This document shows positions 16,003 through 26,006 of a DNA stretch of 64,000 nucleotides, piece after piece. The stretch comes from Alphaproteobacteria bacterium (GTDB lineage Bacteria; Pseudomonadota; Alphaproteobacteria; ATCC43930; CGMCC-115725): contig JAGWNF010000001.1 in NCBI GenBank assembly GCA_028871455.1, forward strand, positions 170,349 through 234,348. Reading direction: 5' to 3'. Under the pieces are notes generated by a model, which worked only from the letters and a program-made list of their open reading frames with translations, was not told where the DNA came from and made no database searches. The first letter of the stretch is position 1. Every line of letters begins with the position of its first letter. Both the position numbers and the translations under genes were made by a program.

Positions 16003-17931
16003 ATGGGCGCGCAGGCGCTCATGCAACTCGACATCGAGACCTTCAGCAACGTGCGGGGCGGCAACGCTTTTTTCAAGGCGGTGACGCATCCGCTGGCGGC
16101 AGAACGTGGCCGTGTGCTGTTCGCGCGACTGGCACGGATGAAGCGCGTTGCCATCTACGATCCGGAGAATTGCGTCGGTGCGCTCGGCCAGCTGTACGAT
16201 CTTTCGGGTATCCCCGTCGCTGGACTCTATGCACAGGACGTGACGGCGATCGGGCGTACCGCGCTCGGCCAACGTGCGCAGCCGGTGACGGCGCTGAGGG
16301 ACAGCGGCGCGGACGCCGTGCTAGTCGCGTGCTTCGACGCCGAACGTGTGACCGCGCACATCCGCCACCTGCTGCCGGAGGGCGCAACGGTCGCCAGTCT
16401 CGATGCGCTCCGCTTGCCCGACGCGATGGTGACGAACCGCGGGCGTTATCTCGATCCGATCAACTTCACCACCAATTTCGTATTCTTCCGCGACGCCGAA
16501 GGGCTGTCGACGCGGCTGGTCACGGCGAATTACTGGTCGGGTTATGGCGCCGCGGCTGTCGTACTGTGGTGCGTCCTTTTCGACGGCGCCGGCCGTGAGA
16601 TCGCGCGCTGGGACGAGACGTTGCCGCCGGGCGCCGGTAGCGTCGTCATCGACAGCTGGACGGTGCGCCGGCGTTTCGGCCTCGGTGACTTCGCCGGCCA
16701 GATTTTCCTGCACGCCGTCGGCGCCGCCGGACACGACGTCGTGAAATACGCGCTCGACGTTTACGGCGAAGGTGCGAGCCCGGCGAGTCTGTCGTGCACC
16801 CACGACGCCAATTCTTGGCCGTCGGCCCTCTATGCCGGGCTGCCTGCGCCGAACGACGGCGAAACCGTCACGCTCTGGGTCCAGAATTCGATGCCCTGTG
16901 CGATTCCATCCGGCTCCGTTGGACTCAACCTGATGGGCGATGCGGCCATCACCTATGTGGCGGAGGCAATTCCTGCGTTCGCGAGCCGTGCGCTCGATGT
17001 CGCGACGCTACTGCCCAAGGCGCGTTGGCCGCAGCAGATCGAGATGCAAGCCGGCAAATACCTCGTCCGGCCGCGCTACGAGGTGCGCGGTCGCGGCCGG
17101 CTGCGCATCGCGCACGTGAACGTCGAACGCTCGGATCTGAAGCCCGATCCGAAGATCGCCGAGCTCGGTAACTTGCTCGGTAAAGGCTATTTGCTCCCGG
17201 CGCCCGTGTTGCCGCGCGCGTCCTGGCGCTCGATCGCCCTGCCGACGCCGATGTCGACGGCGCAACAGGACCTGCCGGTTGCGTTGATCGTCTATGACCG
17301 CCGCGGTCGCGAAGCGGCACGGCATGGTTTCGGCCGTTTGGCGCGCCACGACTCGGTAGCAGTCGACGTCGACTCGTTGCTCAACGGCGCCAAGCTGCCC
17401 GACGACTATGGTCACATGGAGCTGGTCTACGACTTCGCGCAGGGTGGTAGCGCCGACGGCTGGCTGCATGCGCTCTTCCGCTACGAGGATCGAGTCAGCG
17501 GCCACGCGGCCGAAACCAGCTTCGGCGCACATGTGTTCAACACCGTGCTCATCTATAACGGCGAGCCGCAATCCTATGCCGGCCGGCCGCCGGGACTATC
17601 GACGCGGCTGTTTCTGCGGCTTGGTGACGCGCCGCATGACACGCTTTGCCATCTGATCTATCCGGCGTCGACGCCCTGGCATGCCGAAAGCGCGACCGAC
17701 TTGGTCCTACACGACCACGCCGGCCGCGAGATTGCACGCGAGCGCATGACGATCGCGTGCTCCGGCTCGCGGTTCTTCCGCTACCACGAGGTTTTCGACG
17801 CCAGGACACGCGAGCGCGCCGGTGAATCGGCTTATATCGTGGTGCGCGACACCACCTGCCGGCTTTTCGGCTATCATGGCCTGATCGGACGCGACGGCGC
17901 TTTCAGTCTCGACCACATGTTCGGCTTCTGA
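16003..17931 (+). CDS. Large protein of unknown family (642 residues)
   Basis: I do not recognise this family. The N-terminal 130 residues look like a Rossmann-type alternating fold (MKRVAIYDPENCVGALGQL, then GADAVLVACFDAERV, then GATVASLDALRLP), similar in rhythm to the small nucleotide- or CoA-binding domains attached to sugar enzymes. After about residue 150 the chain is rich in beta strands with repeated aromatic and GR pairs, e.g. VVLWCVLFDGAGREIARW, LPVALIVYDRRGREAARHG and TDLVLHDHAGREIARERM. These look like three or more related beta-sandwich units. There is no signal peptide or membrane helix. The start could be 16003 or 16021. It ends one base before trxB starts, so the two are probably cotranscribed. 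Confidence 0.85.
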   Translation: MGAQALMQLDIETFSNVRGGNAFFKAVTHPLAAERGRVLFARLARMKRVAIYDPENCVGALGQLYDLSGIPVAGLYAQDVTAIGRTALGQRAQPVTALRDSGADAVLVACFDAERVTAHIRHLLPEGATVASLDALRLPDAMVTNRGRYLDPINFTTNFVFFRDAEGLSTRLVTANYWSGYGAAAVVLWCVLFDGAGREIARWDETLPPGAGSVVIDSWTVRRRFGLGDFAGQIFLHAVGAAGHDVVKYALDVYGEGASPASLSCTHDANSWPSALYAGLPAPNDGETVTLWVQNSMPCAIPSGSVGLNLMGDAAITYVAEAIPAFASRALDVATLLPKARWPQQIEMQAGKYLVRPRYEVRGRGRLRIAHVNVERSDLKPDPKIAELGNLLGKGYLLPAPVLPRASWRSIALPTPMSTAQQDLPVALIVYDRRGREAARHGFGRLARHDSVAVDVDSLLNGAKLPDDYGHMELVYDFAQGGSADGWLHALFRYEDRVSGHAAETSFGAHVFNTVLIYNGEPQSYAGRPPGLSTRLFLRLGDAPHDTLCHLIYPASTPWHAESATDLVLHDHAGREIARERMTIACSGSRFFRYHEVFDARTRERAGESAYIVVRDTTCRLFGYHGLIGRDGAFSLDHMFGF

Positions 17932-17932
17932 C

Positions 17933-18901
17933 ATGGCACAACGCCACCACACCAAATTCCTGATCATCGGTGCCGGCCCGGCCGGCTACACGGCGGCCAT
18001 CTACGCCGCGCGGGCCAATCTGAAGCCGATCCTGGTGCAGGGACTCACGCCTGGCGGCCAGCTCACAATCACCACCGATGTCGAGAACTATCCCGGATTT
18101 GCCAAGGCGGTGCAGGGACCATGGCTGATGGAGCAGATGCAAGAGCAGGCGGCGCATGTCGGCACCACGCTGGTCCACGACATCATCGTCAAGGCCGACC
18201 TGTCGAAGCGGCCGTTCCATTGCGTCGGCGATTCCGGCGACGAGTACGTCGCCGCGACTCTCGCCGTCTGCACTGGCGCCGAGGCGCGCTGGCTGGGCGT
18301 GCCGGGCGAAACGCTGCTGCGCGGCGCGGGCGTCTCGGCATGCGCGACCTGTGATGGGTTCTTCTTTCGCGGCAAGGAGGTGGTTGTCGTGGGCGGCGGC
18401 AATACTGCGGTCGAGGAAGCGCTCTATTTGACGCACCACGCCACCAAGGTGACGGTGATGCACCGCCGCGACCAACTGCGCGCGGAGAAAATTCTCCAGG
18501 CGCGGCTCTTCGCCAATTCGAAAGTCACCATGGTCTGGAACAGCGTCATCGAAGAGATCCTCGGCGGTGGCCAGCCCGCGCATGTCACCGGCGTCCGGGT
18601 CAAGAACGTCAAGACGGGCGGCATTTCTAACCTCGCCTGCGACGGCGTATTCGTCGCTATCGGCCATGACCCGGTCACTGGCCTGTTCAAGAATCAGCTC
18701 AAGATGGATGCGGCCGGTTATCTGATCACCAAGCCGGATTCAACCGCGACCGACATTCCTGGCGTCTTCGCCGCCGGCGACGTCAAGGACAAGGTCTTTC
18801 GCCAGGCGGTGACGGCCGCCGGCATGGGCTGCATGGCCGCGCTCGAAGCCGAGAAGTTCCTCGCGGCGCAAGAGGCCGGCGCTCTGCGTGCCGCGGAATA
18901 G
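17933..18901 (+). CDS. trxB: Thioredoxin-disulfide reductase TrxB
   Basis: A 322-residue flavoprotein that passes electrons from NADPH to thioredoxin. The FAD-binding GAGPAG is at residues 13-18, the redox-active pair is Cys137 and Cys140 (ACATCDG), the NADPH-binding GGGNTAVEEAL follows, and the C-terminal FAD motif is GVFAAGDVKD. Length and motif order are those of the low-molecular-weight bacterial type. It starts one base after the stop of the unknown 642-residue gene and is followed six bases later by a LysR regulator, so all three may share a message. Confidence 0.97.
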   Translation: MAQRHHTKFLIIGAGPAGYTAAIYAARANLKPILVQGLTPGGQLTITTDVENYPGFAKAVQGPWLMEQMQEQAAHVGTTLVHDIIVKADLSKRPFHCVGDSGDEYVAATLAVCTGAEARWLGVPGETLLRGAGVSACATCDGFFFRGKEVVVVGGGNTAVEEALYLTHHATKVTVMHRRDQLRAEKILQARLFANSKVTMVWNSVIEEILGGGQPAHVTGVRVKNVKTGGISNLACDGVFVAIGHDPVTGLFKNQLKMDAAGYLITKPDSTATDIPGVFAAGDVKDKVFRQAVTAAGMGCMAALEAEKFLAAQEAGALRAAE

Positions 18902-18907
18902 GCGCCG

Positions 18908-19801
18908 ATGGACTGGGACAAGCTGCGGGTCTTCCACGCGGTCGCCGAAGCCGGGAGCTTCACGCATGCGGGTGAAGCGCTCAATCTCTCGCAGTCGGCG
19001 GTGAGCCGGCAGATCAGCGCGCTCGAGGATAGCCTCTCGGTGCCGCTGTTTCACCGCCACGCGCGCGGTCTGATCCTGACCGAGCAGGGCGACCTGCTCT
19101 ACCGCACGGCGCGCGAAGTCTTCGCCAAGCTGGCGATGACCGAATCGATGCTCACGGAATCCAAGGATCGGCCGAAGGGACCATTGAAGGTGACGACGAC
19201 CGTCGCTTTCGGCGCATCGTGGCTGACGCCGCGCGTGCGCGAATTCGTCGATCTCTATCCCGAGATCGAGGTCAGCCTCGCGCTCGACGACAGCGAACTC
19301 GACCTATCGATGCGCGAGGCCGATGTGGCGATTCGCATGTCGCCTCCGCGTCAACCGGATTTGGTGCAGCGCCATCTATTGACGGTCCGCTATCTCGCTT
19401 ACGCGTCGCCCGAATACCTGAAAAAGCACGGTACGCCGCGCAATCCCGAAGACCTCGACAAGCACCGCATCATCGTCTACGGGCCCGAAGCGCGGCCGGT
19501 GCGCAACGTCAACTGGGTGCTCGAGGCCGGCGCGCGGCCAGGCTACGAACGACGACCGATTCTGGCAGTGAACAATCTTTACGCCATCGCGCAAGCGATC
19601 CAAGCCGGTCTGGGCATCGGTGCGCTGCCCGATTTCATGATCGCCGAAAGCCACAACCTCGTGCGCGTTCTGCCCGAGGTGAAGCCGGTCGAGGCCGCCG
19701 CCTACTTCGTTTATCCCGAGGAACTGCGCAATTCAAAACGCATCGCGGTGTTCCGCGATTTCCTGCTGCACAAGGTCGGCGAGAACCGTAACGGCGGCTG
19801 A
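18908..19801 (+). CDS. LysR family transcriptional regulator
   Basis: A 297-residue regulator. The N-terminal helix-turn-helix reads MDWDKLRVFHAVAEAGSFTHAG and LSQSAVSRQISALE; the C-terminal part is a periplasmic-binding-like effector domain (LKVTTTVAFGASWLTPRV, AIQAGLGIGALPDFM). It is tightly linked to trxB, a pairing seen in several alphaproteobacteria, which suggests but does not prove a redox-related role. No target site is evident because the gene sits inside a polycistronic run. Confidence 0.94.
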   Translation: MDWDKLRVFHAVAEAGSFTHAGEALNLSQSAVSRQISALEDSLSVPLFHRHARGLILTEQGDLLYRTAREVFAKLAMTESMLTESKDRPKGPLKVTTTVAFGASWLTPRVREFVDLYPEIEVSLALDDSELDLSMREADVAIRMSPPRQPDLVQRHLLTVRYLAYASPEYLKKHGTPRNPEDLDKHRIIVYGPEARPVRNVNWVLEAGARPGYERRPILAVNNLYAIAQAIQAGLGIGALPDFMIAESHNLVRVLPEVKPVEAAAYFVYPEELRNSKRIAVFRDFLLHKVGENRNGG

Positions 19802-19920
19802 ACCGCCCGCCGACAGCTGTAAAGAACACCGGCACTCGACTTCAGTATCGGACGCGCGCTAACCTTAATGAAGATTAACGGGTCGGTGCGGCACGAAGGA
19901 ACCGCGCCTCGAGGATGATG

Positions 19921-20307
19921 ATGCGCGATCGTTGGCCGATGTTCATCGCCCTGACCGTGTCGAGCCTGGCCGTGGTTGCCACGGGCATTACGGGCGGGCT
20001 CGCGTTTACCATGGGCACGCAACCGGCTGTGCTCACCCTCGGCGCAACCGGTATCGTCGTCGCCTCCGCCGGTCTACTGGCGGTGGTCCGCTGGATGCTG
20101 GATGCGGAGGCGATCTATCCCGATTACCGCTATCGCCGCGCCTTGGCGACGGGCTTGGTATCTTTGACCGCCGCGACGACAGGCGATGATGCGCCGCCAC
20201 CGCCGGCGGCCGGGCGCACGCAGCCACTGCGGCCTGAGGGCCTCGGCGATAACGTCGTAATCTTCGATGTCGCTCGCGCCCGGCGAAAGCGCCCCCGCAC
20301 ACGCTGA
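19921..20307 (+). CDS. Small membrane protein of unknown function
   Basis: A 128-residue protein with two hydrophobic helices (roughly residues 8-32 and 38-60), a short basic segment, and a proline- and arginine-rich C-terminal tail (APPPPAAGRTQP ... RARRKRPRTR). Three ATG codons in a row occur at 19915, 19918 and 19921. The Shine-Dalgarno GAGG lies at 19911-19914, so only the third has normal spacing, and I chose it. The family is not recognised. It stands alone between LysR and the HPr-rel-A-type cassette. Confidence 0.7.
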   Translation: MRDRWPMFIALTVSSLAVVATGITGGLAFTMGTQPAVLTLGATGIVVASAGLLAVVRWMLDAEAIYPDYRYRRALATGLVSLTAATTGDDAPPPPAAGRTQPLRPEGLGDNVVIFDVARARRKRPRTR

Positions 20308-20460
20308 CGTTGTCCGGCGGTCGCCGGCACGGCAGGGTTAAAAGAGCTTCACCGTGTTGCGCTGATTCGTCCATTTTTTACCAAAAGCCAATCTTGCTTT
20401 ACGGTCCTTTATCGGGTTTCGCGTTAGAACCGGTACTCAACGCGGCGATCCGACGAGCCC

Positions 20461-21072
20461 ATGAGCAAGCGACGCGATACGACCGACTCTGCACGCCGTG
20501 ACAGCGGGCTGAAATCACCGACCCGCCGGGTAATTCTCGGCGGCATTCCGGTCGCCGTGACGCTGGCCAGCAAACCAGCGCTGGCGATGACCGGCGAATG
20601 CTCCGTATCGAACGCGCTGTCCGGCAATTTGTCGCATCCCCTGCCCGAAGGCACGAATTGCGGCCTGACGCCCGAAAGCTGGATCAAGCTCGCAGGCACC
20701 GAGCAGCTGTGGTCGCGTACCGGCTTTGCGCCGTCGACCAGCTTCCTTTCGGCGTGTGGCGCGCAACCCTTCGGTACCCAATGGACATGCGGCGATCAGT
20801 CGTTGCTCGCGGCGTTGGAAGGCGACCTGACCGTCGGCTGCAAGATCGGCAAGGATACCGCCACGCTCGATGCCACCCGGTTCGGCGCGCAACTCGCCGC
20901 AGCGATTCTCAACGCGGGCTGCTTCTCGCCCACCAACTATCCCGAGACGGTATCGCAAATCCGCAATCTCGTGGCCACGATCTGGTCGAGCCAACCGACG
21001 ACGCGAAACATCGCGCAGTCCGAGCTCGACGCCGCCACCGACCGCGTTTCATCCCTCAACATCAACTCGTAG
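20461..21072 (+). CDS. Tat-exported six-cysteine protein, candidate client of the HPr-rel-A-type cassette
   Basis: A 203-residue protein of unknown family. The N terminus has a twin-arginine motif (SPTRRVILGG, Arg22-Arg23), a modest hydrophobic core and a likely signal peptidase site after KPALA (residue 42). The mature part contains six cysteines, an even number consistent with disulfides outside the cytoplasm, and Trp-containing segments. The chain ends SSLNINS. It is seven bases upstream of a PqqD-like gene and in the same direction as the kinase gene after that, so the three look like one operon. Its role as a substrate of that pair is inference only. Confidence 0.75.
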   Translation: MSKRRDTTDSARRDSGLKSPTRRVILGGIPVAVTLASKPALAMTGECSVSNALSGNLSHPLPEGTNCGLTPESWIKLAGTEQLWSRTGFAPSTSFLSACGAQPFGTQWTCGDQSLLAALEGDLTVGCKIGKDTATLDATRFGAQLAAAILNAGCFSPTNYPETVSQIRNLVATIWSSQPTTRNIAQSELDAATDRVSSLNINS

Positions 21073-21078
21073 GCTCGC

Positions 21079-21384
21079 GTGACTGCGCCCGCGTCGACCT
21101 GCCCGACTGCCGAGACTTGGCAAATCGCCGCCGAGATCGATTGGCGCAGCTGGGACAGCGAGATCGTCGCCTATAACGGCCGGACCGGTGACACGCACCA
21201 TTTCGCGGATTTCGCCGCGTGGCTGTTCACTCGCCTGGCGCGACAGCCGGCAGATGCGGCGGCCCTGGCGGCGGCCGCGACCCAGGCCGTCGAACTGCGG
21301 TCCGGCGAGCTGCCCCGCGTAACGGTCGATCGCACGCTCGCGTTGTTCTGCCAGTTCGATCTGCTCGACCGAATCGCGGTTTGA
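21079..21384 (+). CDS. PqqD family protein, HPr-rel-A system type
   Basis: A 101-residue protein with the PqqD-like winged-helix layout: IDWRSWDSEIVAYNGRTGDTHHFADFAAWLFTRL followed by a helical half and a C-terminal LCQFDLLDRI-like end (here LFCQFDLLDRIAV). PqqD-type domains bind peptide leaders or act as chaperones for enzymes that modify peptides. The family form found beside HprK-related kinases is known by its pairing rather than by a tested function. The GTG start is seven bases after the upstream stop, and the kinase ATG is two bases after its own stop. Confidence 0.82.
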   Translation: MTAPASTCPTAETWQIAAEIDWRSWDSEIVAYNGRTGDTHHFADFAAWLFTRLARQPADAAALAAAATQAVELRSGELPRVTVDRTLALFCQFDLLDRIAV

Positions 21385-21386
21385 CG

Positions 21387-22256
21387 ATGTGGTGCGAGAC
21401 CGTCCATCTTCGGCTCGGTCCATTCACGGCGGCGCTTTCGACTGCTTTCGGCGACGTCGTGACCGCGCTCGAGCGGCTCTATCCGCCGCAGTTCCGCGAA
21501 TGCAAGGGCGACTTCAGCGATTTTCACGTGCAGCTGGTGCCGGGCAAGGGCATGCGCCGCTACGTGCGACCGCAAGCACGACTGCTTATCGACGGCCAGG
21601 ATCCCTTCAAGCCGCTGCCGGCAAATCAGGCATTGCCGTTGATCGAATGGGGACTCAATTATGCGATCGCCGGCTTGGCGCATCAGTATCTGATCGTGCA
21701 TGCCGCGGTAATCGAGAAACATGGTCGTGTCGCCATGCTGCCAGGCGCACCCGGCTCGGGCAAAAGCACGCTTGCGGCGGGGCTCGTGCATTGCGGTTGG
21801 CGGCTGTTGTCGGACGAGCTCGCTTTAATCCGCCGCGACGACGGACGTGTCGTGCCGCTAGCGAGGCCGATCAATCTCAAGAACGAGTCGATCGACGTGC
21901 TGAAAGCCTTCGCGCCCGACGCGGTATTCAGCGATCCGGTCGCCGATACCGTCAAGGGAACAGTCGCCTTGATGCGCGCGCCTGACGACAGCCTGACACG
22001 CGTCGACGAAAGCGCACCAATCGGCTGGATCGTGTTCCCGCGCTGGCGCGCCGATGCGGCGGCAGCGTTTACGCCGTTCTCAAAGGCGGCCGGCTTGATC
22101 GAGATCGGCCATCACGCGATGAACTACAGCCTGCACGGCGCTCAAGGCTTTGGGCTATTGAGTGAAATTCTCGAGCGAAGCGGCTGCTACCGCTTCGTCT
22201 ACGCTAACCTCAACGATGCAGCGCGCGCGTTCGACGCGCTCGCCGCTGCCGCGTGA
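21387..22256 (+). CDS. HprK-related kinase A
   Basis: A 289-residue protein with the P-loop kinase core of HPr kinase. Walker A is GAPGSGKST at residues 120-128, preceded by LIVHAAVIEK, and the acidic LLSDELALI follows near residue 142. The N-terminal 90 residues are specific to this family and have no counterpart in HprK. Classical HPr kinase phosphorylates a serine in the phosphocarrier HPr; here no HPr or PTS gene is nearby and the true substrate is unknown. It is the last gene of the apparent three-gene operon. Related kinases in lasso-peptide clusters phosphorylate a C-terminal serine of the precursor, which gives a testable parallel. Confidence 0.85.
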   Translation: MWCETVHLRLGPFTAALSTAFGDVVTALERLYPPQFRECKGDFSDFHVQLVPGKGMRRYVRPQARLLIDGQDPFKPLPANQALPLIEWGLNYAIAGLAHQYLIVHAAVIEKHGRVAMLPGAPGSGKSTLAAGLVHCGWRLLSDELALIRRDDGRVVPLARPINLKNESIDVLKAFAPDAVFSDPVADTVKGTVALMRAPDDSLTRVDESAPIGWIVFPRWRADAAAAFTPFSKAAGLIEIGHHAMNYSLHGAQGFGLLSEILERSGCYRFVYANLNDAARAFDALAAAA

Positions 22257-22276
22257 CCGCGATGACCGCGATCAAC

Positions 22277-22513
22277 TCAGCGCCACACCGGCTTGCCGAG
22301 ATAGATCTGCGATGGATCGCTGAGCGCACCGGCGGTGGCGCCGAGCGCACCGCCGAATACCGCGCCGGTCAGCGGCATCCCGACCGCCGCGCCGGCCAGG
22401 GCGCCAACGCCGGCGCCCATGACGCCGCCGCTCAAGGCGCGATCGCCCGGGCTCGACCCGCAGCCGGCGAGCAACAGCCCGCCCGCAACCACCAAAATGG
22501 CCATACGACGCAT
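22277..22513 (-). CDS. Small glycine-zipper lipoprotein
   Basis: A 78-residue protein with a lipoprotein signal (LLLAGC lipobox, Cys around residue 17) and a glycine-zipper segment (GGVMGAGVGALAGAAVGMP and further G-x3-G repeats) like YMGG or osmotically inducible outer-membrane lipoproteins. GGGGAG lies seven bases before the chosen ATG; an in-frame start 15 bases upstream would put the ribosome site inside the gene. The prolipoprotein would be processed by Lgt, encoded at 48006. It is convergent with the kinase gene and has its own promoter. Confidence 0.85.
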   Translation of the reverse strand: MRRMAILVVAGGLLLAGCGSSPGDRALSGGVMGAGVGALAGAAVGMPLTGAVFGGALGATAGALSDPSQIYLGKPVWR

Positions 22514-22544
22514 GAGTTCACTCCCCAAAGGCCGAAAGCGCGCG

Positions 22545-22574
22545 AGTATAGGGCGTCGATTTTTTGGAATACAA
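22545..22574 (-). promoter_or_regulatory. Sigma-70 promoter of the glycine-zipper lipoprotein gene
   Basis: On the minus strand TTGTAT (22569-22574) and TATACT (22545-22550) are separated by 18 bp. Transcription would begin near 22538, giving a short leader that includes the GGGGAG ribosome site before the ATG at 22513. The whole 22530-22690 stretch is AT-rich compared with its surroundings, as expected of a promoter region. Confidence 0.6.
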
Positions 22575-22785
22575 GAGTCTCATATAAGTCAATTGGTTGT
22601 ATGTTCGACTTAAAGTCACACAAGAGCAGAATCGAGCTAAATCAAGCAGTTACGCCGATTTCCGATTCGTGCCATCTGCGGGCGCGCCCCGGAACCGGCT
22701 TAGAAACGACGAATCGGGGACCCAGCGAGAACCGCGTCTGTACCGAAGGATGCCATCGACGCCACCCGCACCACGGAGAGTTCAG

Positions 22786-22863
22786 GTGATCTCGCTCTTT
22801 CTCTGGCTGCTGCGCATACCGGTTCCGGTCCTGGTTCTGCTCTACCTGTTCAAGGTGATCTGA
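22786..22863 (+). CDS. Possible 25-residue hydrophobic membrane peptide
   Basis: A GTG at 22786 is preceded by GGAGAG with five bases between, and opens a frame of 25 residues that is almost entirely hydrophobic: MISLFLWLLRIPVPV followed by LVLLYLFKVI. It would form a single membrane helix, broken by an I-P-V-P motif and ending in a lysine. No longer in-frame reading looks protein-like. Tiny membrane proteins of this kind are common but rarely annotated. It is convergent with msrP, 39 bp away. Coding status is uncertain. Confidence 0.45.
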   Translation: MISLFLWLLRIPVPVLVLLYLFKVI

Positions 22864-22902
22864 CCGGTACAGCCGCGCCCGATCAGGCGACGCTTCCGCG
22901 GA

Positions 22903-23871
22903 TCAGCGGAACAGCTGCTCGCCCTTGATGCCGTCGTACATCGTCGCGACGTATTCGCCGTAACCGTTCCAGATCAGCGTGGGCCGCCGCGTGTCTTCGC
23001 CGAGCTCGCGTTCGGTTGCTTGGCTCCAGCGCGGATGCGGCACGGCGGGATTGACATTGGCCCAGAAGCCGTACTCGTTGGATTGCAATGCAGTCCAGAA
23101 AGACACCGGCTGCCGATCGGTGAAGCTGAACTTGACGATCGACTTGATCGACTTGAAGCCGTATTTCCATGGCAGCGCCAAGCGCAGCGGCGCGCCGTCC
23201 TGCTTCGGCACCGGCTTGCCGTACATACCGGTGACGAGAAACGCGAGATCATTGTTGGCTTCGAACATGGTCATGCCCTCGATGTAAGGCCAAGGATAGA
23301 AGAAGGCGCGCTGGCCCGACGCCATCTTCGGGTCCATGAAGGTGACCATCTTGATGTACTTGGCACCGCTGAGCGGTTTCGCCATGTCGACTAGCGTCTT
23401 CAGCGGAAAGCCGGTCCACGGCACCGCCATCGACCACGTCTCCACGCAGCGGTGGCGATAAAGCCGTTCCTCCAGCATCACCTTCTTGAGCAAATCGTCG
23501 ATGCCAAGAGTGAACGGCTTCTCGACCATGCCGTCGATCGAGATCGTCCATGGCCGGATCTTCAGCGCATCGGAATACTCGTAGACGTCCTTGTTGGTCG
23601 TGAACTCGTAGAAATTGTTGTAGGTAGTCGACAGCTTTTGCGGCGTGACCAGCCGATCGAGCGTATATTTCGGGTCGCGCTTCGCCGGATAGAGGCCCGC
23701 CGACGGATCGGCATCGGCGAAAGCCGGCGCCGCTGCGGCCAGTGCGCCGGCGCCACCGGCAGCCGCCATCGCGCCCATGGCCTTGAGCAAGGCACGCCGA
23801 TTGTGGAACACCGCTTCCGGCGTCGATTCGCGCTCGGGGATTTCCCAACCCCGTTTCCGCTTCACCCACAT
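22903..23871 (-). CDS. msrP: Protein-methionine-sulfoxide reductase catalytic subunit MsrP (YedY)
   Basis: A 322-residue periplasmic molybdoenzyme that repairs oxidised methionines in envelope proteins. A Tat-like twin arginine (Arg25-Arg26 in FHNRRALLKAMG) is followed by an Ala/Gly-rich core. The molybdenum-ligating cysteine lies in YRHRCVETWSMAVPWTG, and the oxidoreductase molybdopterin fold continues through GAPLRLALPWKYGFKSIK. The start MWVKRKRG is set by GGAGG upstream. The usual haem membrane partner MsrQ is not adjacent. The cofactor is of the kind made by the moe/moa genes at 36.8-38.8 kb. Confidence 0.96.
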   Translation of the reverse strand: MWVKRKRGWEIPERESTPEAVFHNRRALLKAMGAMAAAGGAGALAAAAPAFADADPSAGLYPAKRDPKYTLDRLVTPQKLSTTYNNFYEFTTNKDVYEYSDALKIRPWTISIDGMVEKPFTLGIDDLLKKVMLEERLYRHRCVETWSMAVPWTGFPLKTLVDMAKPLSGAKYIKMVTFMDPKMASGQRAFFYPWPYIEGMTMFEANNDLAFLVTGMYGKPVPKQDGAPLRLALPWKYGFKSIKSIVKFSFTDRQPVSFWTALQSNEYGFWANVNPAVPHPRWSQATERELGEDTRRPTLIWNGYGEYVATMYDGIKGEQLFR

Positions 23872-23978
23872 GGCCGACCTCCGTCCTTGTGATCGCAGCG
23901 ATATCGTCAAGCCCGGGTCACATCAAGTCACGCTCCCGCGACTGCGGCTGAAACGATTTCAAGGCCCTCGAAACGGCG

Positions 23979-26006
23979 TTATTGCGCGGCTTCGCCGGTC
24001 CGCGCCGCCAGCACCTTCTCGGCCAGCTTGCCGGTCAGCTCCTGCAGCCGGTCGAAATGATGCGTGAAGGTGCCGGTGCCGAGCGTCACCGAGCGCAATT
24101 CGATGATGAGATCGTGCATCTCGGCCAGCGGCATATCCGTCGCCACCACGTCCCATCCGGCCCAATCAGGCTTCGCGTCGTAGCCCAGGATATGCCCGCG
24201 CCGGGCCGAGACAATGCGCTGGACCCGCGAGGTGAAGGCGTTGGGTATCGAGATTTCAACGCGGTGGATCGGCTCGAGCAACACCGGATCGCATTTCGGC
24301 AGCGCCTCGCTCATCGCCTGCCGCGCCACCGTCTTGAAGGCCTGGTCCGAGCTGTCGACAGCGTGGAACTGGCCGGTCACCAGCTTCACCGACAGGTCGA
24401 CCACGAGACTACCCAACGGTCCGTGCCGCAGATATTCCGTGACGCCCTCCTCGACCGCCGGAATGTAGTTACGCGGAATGGCGCCGCCGACCACGGCGTC
24501 GACGAAGGCGAAACCGCCGCCGCGTGGCAGCGGCTTGACCTCGATCTGGATGTCGGCGAACTGGCCATGGCCGCCGGTCTGGCGCTTGAAGCGCGAGTGC
24601 AGCGCGGCGCCCTTGCGGATAGTCTCGCGATAGGGGATCTGCGGACGACGCGCCTGGACAGCGAGGTTGAATTTGTGGCGCAGCCGATCGAGCGCGATCT
24701 GGAGATGGATGTCACCCTGGCCCCAGAGCACCAGTTCCTGGAGTTCCGCGTTCTGCTCGAGCGACAGCGTCGGATCCTCCTCGATCAGCTTCTGGATGGC
24801 GCCGGTGAGCTTGACGTCATCGCTCCGCTTCTCCGCCGCGATTGTCAGACCGAGGACCGGCTTCGGCGGCGTGATCGAGGGCAGCTTCGGCGCCGGTCCG
24901 GTCGCCAGCACGGTGCCCGTGGTGACACCTTCGAGCCGCGCGAGCGCCGCGATCTCGCCCATGCCGGCGCCAGGCAGTTTTTCGGATGCTGCGCCCTGGA
25001 GCCGCAGCACGCCGCCGACCCGCACGCCATTGAGGCTCATGCCTTCATTCACCGTGCCGCGCCAAATCCGGACGAGCGACAGCTTGCCGGCATGCGGCGG
25101 ATTGTAGGTCTTGATCACCTGCGCGACCGTGCCACTGCCGGCGCCAACGCCGAGACGCTCCGCGGTCACGGTGGCCGCTGGAGTTTCGTGCCGCAGCGCC
25201 TTCCACAAGCGGCGCACGCCGTGATCGAGGAGCGCCGAGCCGAGAAATACCGGCACGATCAAATCGCGCCGTAGATCCTGCGTGAGCTGCTTGTAGATCT
25301 CGTCCTTCGACGGCTGGATGTCTTCGAGCAACTGCTCCAGCAGCTTGTCGTCGAAATCCGCGAGTTTCTCAACCAGGCTGGTGCGCGACTCCTGTTCGGC
25401 CGCCGTCATGTCATCGGGCAGCTTGATCAGATCCGAGGCCTTGCCCGGCTGGTAGCGGTAGGCGCGCTCGCTGACCAAGTCGACATAGCCGGCAATGGTG
25501 CTATCCAGACCGGGCAACGGCACCTGGCGCAATACTAGCGGCCGCGCCGAAATCGACTGCAGCGCCGCCAGCACCTCCGAGACACGCGCTGACGTCTGAT
25601 CGATCTTGTTGACGAAGATCATGTGCGGAATTTGGCGATCGTCGAGGAACTTGAGCAGTGGCGACAACGCCAGCACGCGGTCAGGCACGGCCTCGCACAC
25701 CACCACCGCGACATCGGCGGCGAGCATCGCGGTCTGGGCCTCGGTCGCGAGCTCGACCGATCCCGGGCAATCGAGAAAAAACCAACGGTCACCGAGATAA
25801 GTGGCGTGCGCCGGGTTGATCTCGGTCGACATCTGGCGCGCCCGAGCCTCGGGAGCGGAATCGCCGACTGTGGTCTGATCTTTTTGGGTGCCGCGTCGGT
25901 GGATGGCGTCGGCGGCGAAAAGCAGGGATTCGAGGAGGGTTGTCTTGCCGGAGAGGTACGGTCCCGCCAGGGCCGCTACACGCGGCCCGCCTGCCCTTTC
26001 GCCCAT
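23979..26006 (-). CDS. Elongation factor G-like GTPase (EF-G paralogue)
   Basis: A 675-residue protein with the five-domain EF-G layout. The GTPase motifs depart from canonical EF-G: the P-loop is GPYLSGKT (residues 15-22), G3 is DCPGS (79-83) where translocases have a catalytic histidine after DxPG, and G4 is NKID (133-136). The later part contains RKGAALHSRFKRQTGGHGQFADI and the domain IV/V segment AGWDVVATDMPLAEMHDL. It therefore belongs to the EF-G-like group found beside the main fusA in many bacteria, whose role is unclear. It is transcribed toward msrP, with a gap of about 107 bp. Confidence 0.93.
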   Translation of the reverse strand: MGERAGGPRVAALAGPYLSGKTTLLESLLFAADAIHRRGTQKDQTTVGDSAPEARARQMSTEINPAHATYLGDRWFFLDCPGSVELATEAQTAMLAADVAVVVCEAVPDRVLALSPLLKFLDDRQIPHMIFVNKIDQTSARVSEVLAALQSISARPLVLRQVPLPGLDSTIAGYVDLVSERAYRYQPGKASDLIKLPDDMTAAEQESRTSLVEKLADFDDKLLEQLLEDIQPSKDEIYKQLTQDLRRDLIVPVFLGSALLDHGVRRLWKALRHETPAATVTAERLGVGAGSGTVAQVIKTYNPPHAGKLSLVRIWRGTVNEGMSLNGVRVGGVLRLQGAASEKLPGAGMGEIAALARLEGVTTGTVLATGPAPKLPSITPPKPVLGLTIAAEKRSDDVKLTGAIQKLIEEDPTLSLEQNAELQELVLWGQGDIHLQIALDRLRHKFNLAVQARRPQIPYRETIRKGAALHSRFKRQTGGHGQFADIQIEVKPLPRGGGFAFVDAVVGGAIPRNYIPAVEEGVTEYLRHGPLGSLVVDLSVKLVTGQFHAVDSSDQAFKTVARQAMSEALPKCDPVLLEPIHRVEISIPNAFTSRVQRIVSARRGHILGYDAKPDWAGWDVVATDMPLAEMHDLIIELRSVTLGTGTFTHHFDRLQELTGKLAEKVLAARTGEAAQ

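Follow-up and report, generated by a model that had tools for sequence, protein, structure and literature searches.

Here, we analyse a three-gene cassette in a 64,000-nucleotide stretch of alphaproteobacterial DNA (the window; GenBank assembly GCA_028871455.1, contig JAGWNF010000001.1, positions 170,349 to 234,348; genome G000) that belongs to the HPr-rel-A system and whose first gene encodes a candidate substrate of the other two. The three genes fill window positions 20461-22256 on the forward strand, to which all cassette coordinates below refer, and are separated by 6 and 2 bases, as the first-pass annotation of the window had described. P0001 (20461..21072, ATG start) encodes a 203-amino-acid (aa) protein with predicted export by twin-arginine translocation (Tat), here called the client; P0002 (21079..21384, GTG start) encodes a 101-aa PqqD_rel_X protein and P0003 (21387..22256, ATG start) a 289-aa HprK-related kinase A. 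P0002 scored 40.2 bits against TIGR04353 (cut-off 35) and P0003 334.4 bits against TIGR04352 (cut-off 200). Both curated cut-offs are thus passed and the cassette is the named HPr-rel-A system, the type first proposed for it. HPr-rel-A already exists as a curated name, with named kinase and PqqD families; HPr-rel-A, HprK-related kinase, TIGR04352, TIGR04353 and the model names were not found in the literature searched. Many Pseudomonadota show the same arrangement with sequences of low identity, so that it is not due to chance.

We compared the cassette across 154 loci, comprising the window, 73 loci fetched with their flanks from genomes of its class, order and phylum, and 80 named loci, which are the best 80 of 342 confirmed in a scan with a kinase alignment. 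The named loci are mostly from Beta- and Gammaproteobacteria (Massilia, Duganella, Noviherbaspirillum, Thiobacillus and others) and also include some Alphaproteobacteria, Malonomonas rubra and a Planctomycetaceae metagenome-assembled genome. Two loci cut at the kinase (L111 and L131) were left out. Among the 152 assessable loci, 137 have an open reading frame (ORF) with a Tat signal upstream of the kinase gene, mostly directly before the PqqD gene. The clients called range from 82 to nearly 290 aa, and near-copies between the two locus sets were not present.

The predicted Tat-type signal or leader of P0001 spans residues 1-42 (20461..20586; cleavage after A42 placed by eye). An RR motif at residues 22-23, within SPTRRVILGG...ALA, and a hydrophobic stretch are the basis of the predicted export. 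Just behind the signal lies a conserved C-x-x-S, C47-S48-V49-S50 (20599..20610), whose Ser50 is the phosphoacceptor predicted from conservation. P0001 is a type I client, of the shape C-[ST]-x-S...SGNxS...C-G-x-[ST]-P-G-[YFW]-W...W...LLNA. Across 92 type I sequences including P0001, R22 and R23 are present in all 92, S50 in 90, C47 in 89, S54 in 86, L150, N151 and C67 in 85 each, W84 in 79, and W74 and S58 in 75 each. Ser50 is more conserved than every other column except the twin Arg; the two clients without it have Thr (L137) or Leu (L175). A smaller alignment, A5, holds 62 of the 73 named clients plus P0001. It omitted the fragment-like L219 and clients that were divergent, long or near-copies (L174, L175, L177, L184, L189, L191, L192, L223, L225 and L230), and because L175 is among them, the invariance of Ser50 in A5 is partly due to selection; the 92-row count takes in all omitted clients except L219. 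L132, which matches the type II pattern by chance, was kept as type I, and L103, L117, L142 and L219 were set aside as neither type. The first-pass annotation had drawn attention to six cysteines in the first gene product. All six are present (residues 47, 67, 99, 110, 127 and 154), but C47 and C67 alone among them are conserved, as are Ser50 and Ser54, and the six cysteines were rejected as a defining client feature. A Ser at the extreme C-terminus, as reported for paeninodin, was also rejected as a client rule: the last residue of P0001 is Ser, and the end residue differs between clients.

The 41 type II clients combine a Tat signal with a variable middle and a [ST]C[WFYLMI]xS motif near the C-terminus. 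This motif occurs in the last 45 residues of 41 of the 45 non-type-I clients and of one of the 92 type I clients; in 500 shuffles of the same tails the mean was 0.28 and the maximum 3 of 45. As the motif helped to define the class, clients found later are the fairer test, and it is present in all seven of them (G246, G288, G341, G353, G387, G480 and the second client of G398). These seven were located with a signal model, that of G288 first through the type I profile, and some of their genomes are closely related to ones that had been included before. At 82 aa, L098 is the shortest type II client and consists essentially of the signal and a short tail of about two dozen residues ending SCLDSFNGL. 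C-x-x-S is common to both types, which may reflect common ancestry or chance. P0001 matched no Pfam or NCBIfam family above its cut-off. Scans of 17 type I members against the same databases revealed no client family (one glutenin match in one member, E 0.0018), and those of three type II members gave no family match. A PDB sequence search with P0001 returned nothing reliable, Foldseek with the client model gave no match under E 1, and a second fold search with residues 79-203 reached a best Z of 3.1, mostly to designed helical proteins and others; these model-based searches neither show nor exclude a known fold. Type I clients have a conserved core, the helices of which are partly modelled with confidence.

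Client and kinase also coincide at the level of whole genomes. Genomes with a TIGR04352 match above the cut-off number 7 among 190 in the class, 9 among 43 in the order and 61 among 398 in the phylum; the phylum scans for TIGR04352 and exosortase covered 398 genomes, the client-profile scan 396. At 1e-4, the type I client profile (A4, from 17 type I clients) matched 24 of the 396 genomes, 23 of them kinase-positive. Ten of the 24 had supplied rows to the profile, and with these dropped, 13 of 14 are kinase-positive (p 1e-11, relatedness not corrected; all Fisher values given here ignore it). Eleven matches, all in kinase-positive genomes, stop short of position 130 of 214 and cover mainly the signal region. 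The sole kinase-negative match (G551) covers the body only, in a long ORF that lacks the leader and has a TPGYWK...LLNA domain close to its end. The body domain thus exists outside the system, and the combination of leader and body, in this sample, does not. Within the order, matches that span most of P0001 occur in just 7 of the 43 genomes, all kinase-positive, that of G229 lying away from the kinase locus, and the partial matches were a remnant in G225 and weak, stop-containing ones in G197 and G190. Widespread occurrence of the first gene without the other two was thus looked for in the 396 phylum and 43 order genomes and not found there.

Where client and kinase are apart, the PqqD gene accompanies the client. 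For four client-less kinase loci, a client-PqqD pair lies elsewhere in the genome (G246, G288, G341 and G480), and in G353 the pair lies beside the kinase on the opposite strand; PqqD thus stays with the client in five genomes whose kinase locus has neither on its strand. This, the co-occurrence, and the co-loss and kinase tree described below indicate that the first gene behaves as a dedicated partner, in line with the candidate client of the first-pass annotation. Besides the client at its kinase locus (L094), G398 has a second client-PqqD pair (G398:C66, L286), so that one kinase may serve two clients. G229 carries a second type I client-like ORF away from its kinase locus, near a contig end (G229:C357; L152, L158).

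Co-loss was observed in the congeneric genome G225 (listed as 100% complete, 5% contamination). In a blastn comparison, window positions 17501-24500 aligned to its locus (L157) over 17502-19931, 20332-20566 and 22024-24500. The absent segment, 20567..22023 (ends good to a few bases), takes away the client beyond its signal, the PqqD gene and the greater part of the kinase gene. What remains is the start that encodes the signal and the end of the kinase gene, and the flanks of the cassette, with LysR and the oxidoreductase, align. A second, smaller unaligned gap upstream of the client (19932-20331) is shorter in G225, which means that the region changed more than once. G225 gave no match to TIGR04352 and none to PF14907, a nucleotidyltransferase family, whereas G000, G226 and G227 have both.

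P0003 has the Walker A motif GAPGSGKST at residues 120-128 (K126; 21744..21770), exactly as first annotated. A PDB sequence search placed His105 (21699..21701), K126 and Asp143-Glu144 (21813..21818) onto a His, the P-loop Lys and an Asp-Asp pair in HprK, and H105, K126, D143 and E144 are kept in 22 of 22 relatives (A6) and nine of nine (A1). With the P0003 model (predicted local distance difference test score, pLDDT, 92.9), the best Foldseek match was phosphoenolpyruvate carboxykinase (PEPCK; E 2.8e-8), with HprK weaker (E 1.3e-3). P0003 thus resembles HprK in fold class, His, P-loop Lys and Asp; it differs in falling under the PF07475 cut-off (21.0 bits vs 33.3; genomic frame 21.6). G000 carries a separate PF07475 gene above that cut-off, and a plain HPr kinase was rejected as an assignment for P0003.

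The kinase tree follows client type. In a quick tree of 153 kinases (Shimodaira-Hasegawa-like approximate likelihood ratio support, SH-aLRT, only; L131 dropped for length), 5 changes suffice for the label 'type I' (mean 47.9 after shuffling) and 10 for 'type II' (mean 36.3), and one starred set of 98 rows comprises 91 type I loci and seven without a client. The window's class stands on both sides of the tree, its own family (f1) with type I and family f14 with type II, so that the split does not simply run by class.

A nucleotidyltransferase adjoining the kinase is absent from the cassette and its scanned flanks, as the first-pass annotation had remarked; its suggestion of a minimal form, by contrast, has to be abandoned. 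G000 has a PF14907 nucleotidyltransferase gene at G000:C17:149050-149817 (192.1 bits), on another contig than the cassette. Its locus encodes polysaccharide export (TIGR03027), chain-length (TIGR03007) and outer-membrane (TIGR03016) proteins above their cut-offs, with an exosortase about 8 kb from the gene, and is of the XrtA/PEP-CTERM type. As the nucleotidyltransferase lies elsewhere in the genome, the system is a split form rather than a minimal one, and a system without this enzyme was rejected. Across the order, PF14907 is present in nine of nine kinase-positive genomes vs 8 of 34 kinase-less ones. It lies close by on the kinase contig in four of the nine (G202, G224, G228 and G229) and on another contig in five (G000, G204, G205, G226 and G227), which assigns the split form in this sample to the window's genus and genus g171. 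The usual HPr-rel-A loci differ from the window in this respect: 57 of the 73 and 78 of the 80 fetched loci, together 135 of 153, include a gene related to the L002 nucleotidyltransferase.

Exopolysaccharide-type markers (Wza-, Wzz- and PrsT-like proteins, an epimerase and two glycosyltransferases, labelled by resemblance; the last two kinds of enzyme are found in other loci too) were seen in 36 of the 73 and 38 of the 80 fetched loci. Exosortase was found in 32 of 61 kinase-positive vs 47 of 337 other phylum genomes (p 3e-10). XrtA/PEP-CTERM exopolysaccharide loci thus resemble the system as the home of the window genome's nucleotidyltransferase and through markers near about half of the loci. 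Substrates of XrtA/PEP-CTERM systems end in a C-terminal PEP motif, a membrane helix and a basic tail, and P0001 differs from them: inspection by eye revealed no PEP-CTERM-like end at its C-terminus, ...ATDRVSSLNINS. Literature searches found no paper linking exosortase with PqqD or HPr kinase.

The closest precedent is the tailoring of lasso peptides. As described in reviews and a paper (PMC8498205, PMC9266682, PMC10368454), HPr-kinase homologues (PadeK, ThcoK, SyanK and PsmK) phosphorylate a serine of lasso precursors, the PqqD-like B1 protein binds the leader, and the nucleotidyltransferase PsmN is credited with adding hexoses to the phosphoserine and may nucleotidylate it first. One of them names Ser3 of the core as a kinase target (PMC10368454), and another gives His-Lys-Asp-Asp as catalytic residues of the lasso-type serine kinases (PMC9266682). 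The system studied here likewise comprises an HPr-kinase homologue, a PqqD-like protein and a nucleotidyltransferase, the target in the lasso precedent being a serine. Unlike in lasso clusters, the candidate substrate is an exported protein with a predicted Tat signal, 203 aa in the case of P0001, which does not fit a short precursor with a C-terminal serine target, and no B2 peptidase or cyclase domain was detected in the eight flanking proteins scanned. P0003 further carries Glu144 at the position of the second Asp of the HprK pair, lasso kinases being compared by description. The best PDB sequence match of P0002 is TfuB1, a lasso B1 protein by name (E 0.7, unreliable). On a Deinococcus psychrotolerans plasmid (L263, 4782-6122; one record), one gene joins a PF14907 nucleotidyltransferase to a lasso B2 peptidase domain; a PqqD gene lies about 4 kb from the fusion, and a hypothetical gene is likewise located a few kb from it.

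The observations comprise gene content, family membership and conservation, the co-occurrence and co-loss of the genes, and the link between kinase clade and client type; from them we infer leader recognition, kinase target, nucleotidyltransferase step, export and surface role by analogy with these systems. We propose, with a probability of about 0.5, that the operon encodes a client together with its dedicated modification enzymes, and that P0001, presented by P0002, is phosphorylated by P0003 at Ser50, capped and exported by Tat. Briefly, the Tat-type signal of P0001 might double as the leader recognised by the PqqD-like P0002, which would present P0001 to P0003, a kinase of the HprK/PEPCK fold. 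P0003 would then phosphorylate Ser50 of the C-x-x-S just behind the signal; the client family travels with the kinase and keeps a nearly unchanging Ser, which makes Ser50 the likely target. The nucleotidyltransferase could add a sugar or a nucleotidyl group to the phosphoserine, and Tat would export P0001 in its modified and folded state, probably for a function at the cell surface or in exopolysaccharide. The Tat pathway exports folded proteins, and this route would fit cytoplasmic modification ahead of export. A Tat-signal client upstream is an element found here that is not part of the curated HPr-rel-A definition as seen from its family names.

Several points weigh against this proposal. 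Ten of the 15 client-less loci are unexplained: of the six followed up, five showed the client-PqqD pairs described above and the sixth, in G299, a PqqD gene elsewhere in the genome with no client adjoining. Five of these ten form a Thiobacillaceae/Hydrogenophilales clade that has kinase, PqqD and nucleotidyltransferase (L173, L182, L185, L190 and L197; prmC- or hslV-like neighbours were seen by eye). The type I client profile was not matched in 38 of the 61 kinase-positive phylum genomes, which would be expected if these carry type II clients, as the profile used is type I. TIGR04353 was not matched at 1e-5 in seven of the 61, and eight genomes match TIGR04353 but have no TIGR04352 kinase at 1e-40. 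PF14907 also occurs in the eight kinase-less genomes of the order noted above, and exosortase was not found in 29 of the 61. Types I and II perhaps share the short C-x-x-S by coincidence, Ser50 may be conserved for structural reasons, and common descent could by itself produce the agreement between kinase tree and client type. Finally, the 80 named loci are those most similar to P0003, which favours type I, and client calls were made partly by eye from printed ORFs after first regular-expression and hydropathy callers had missed many.

The same gene content can be read in other ways. The kinase and the nucleotidyltransferase could act on a small molecule, an exopolysaccharide sugar or lipid, with the exported protein of the first gene serving the same pathway unmodified. 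PEPCK, a small-molecule enzyme and the best Foldseek match of the kinase model, would fit this, as would the exopolysaccharide-type markers and the position of the G000 nucleotidyltransferase inside an XrtA-type locus. A PqqD-type adaptor, however, would make little sense unless the substrate were a peptide or protein, and PqqD pairs with the client where the kinase lies elsewhere, the kinase clade follows client type and the client Ser is near-invariant; we regard a small-molecule substrate as possible but doubtful. It is unlikely that the client is instead a precursor in the manner of ribosomally synthesised and post-translationally modified peptides (RiPPs), the exported protein or a C-terminal piece of it being the modified peptide, for instance a signal or toxin. 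The lasso-type enzymes, the conserved leader with variable body and short conserved motif, and the two dozen or so residues behind the signal of L098 would be in line with such a precursor, whereas the Tat-type signal, the conserved and partly modelled core of type I clients and the absence of B2 peptidase and cyclase domains among the flanking proteins scanned speak against it.

Two further explanations are less likely still. Adjacency by itself would permit that the genes are co-inherited for expression only and that the client is an unmodified secreted protein. Client-PqqD pairs persist away from the kinase, however, the combination of leader and body is confined to kinase-positive genomes in our sample, and the cassette-less G225 also lacks the nucleotidyltransferase, which together render this account quite improbable. 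Least credible, and disfavoured here, is that P0003 is an ordinary HPr kinase of carbon or nitrogen regulation: its similarity to HprK is distant, it falls below the PF07475 cut-off that a separate gene of the same genome exceeds, and it co-occurs strongly with client and PqqD.

The surroundings of the cassette include, upstream, a pyridine nucleotide-disulphide oxidoreductase, a LysR gene (18908-19801) and a membrane-protein-like 130-aa ORF (19915-20307) and, downstream on the opposite strand, a glycine-zipper lipoprotein-like ORF, a molybdopterin oxidoreductase, an elongation factor G-like gene and an aminotransferase. The 130-aa ORF is largely unaligned in G225, gave no match in Pfam and NCBIfam scans and has look-alikes in the same place in L134, L135, L136 and L138. 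A scan for promoters and terminators found neither kind of site. A role in anti-phage defence was rejected, PADLOC yielding a single weak P-loop match to TRIP13 (E 0.00087). Other arrangements of related domains were also encountered. In G303, which has no TIGR04352 match, a 453-aa ORF (L285, 1095-2454, minus-strand numbering) fuses HprK-like and PqqD-like domains next to a small Arg/Ser-rich ORF with a Tat-like signal and is possibly a fused cousin of the HPr-rel-A system. G230 (L284) has HprK-like, PqqD-like and, by eye, radical SAM-like ORFs in a row, another combination of PqqD and kinase.

To the curated system, the analysis adds two client families, the C-x-x-S site, the pairing of PqqD with the client away from the kinase and the split nucleotidyltransferase. 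It thereby provides a candidate substrate family with a named residue and an explanation for the 'missing' nucleotidyltransferase. A broader and decidedly tentative extension is that HPr-rel-A is a widespread route for Ser phosphorylation, followed by glycosylation or nucleotidylation, of a Tat-exported protein, tied to exosortase-type exopolysaccharide and possibly providing a primer or anchor. If true, HPr-rel-A would represent a cell-surface protein modification system present across Pseudomonadota and a few other phyla, and the tailoring chemistry of lasso peptides would extend to whole secreted proteins.

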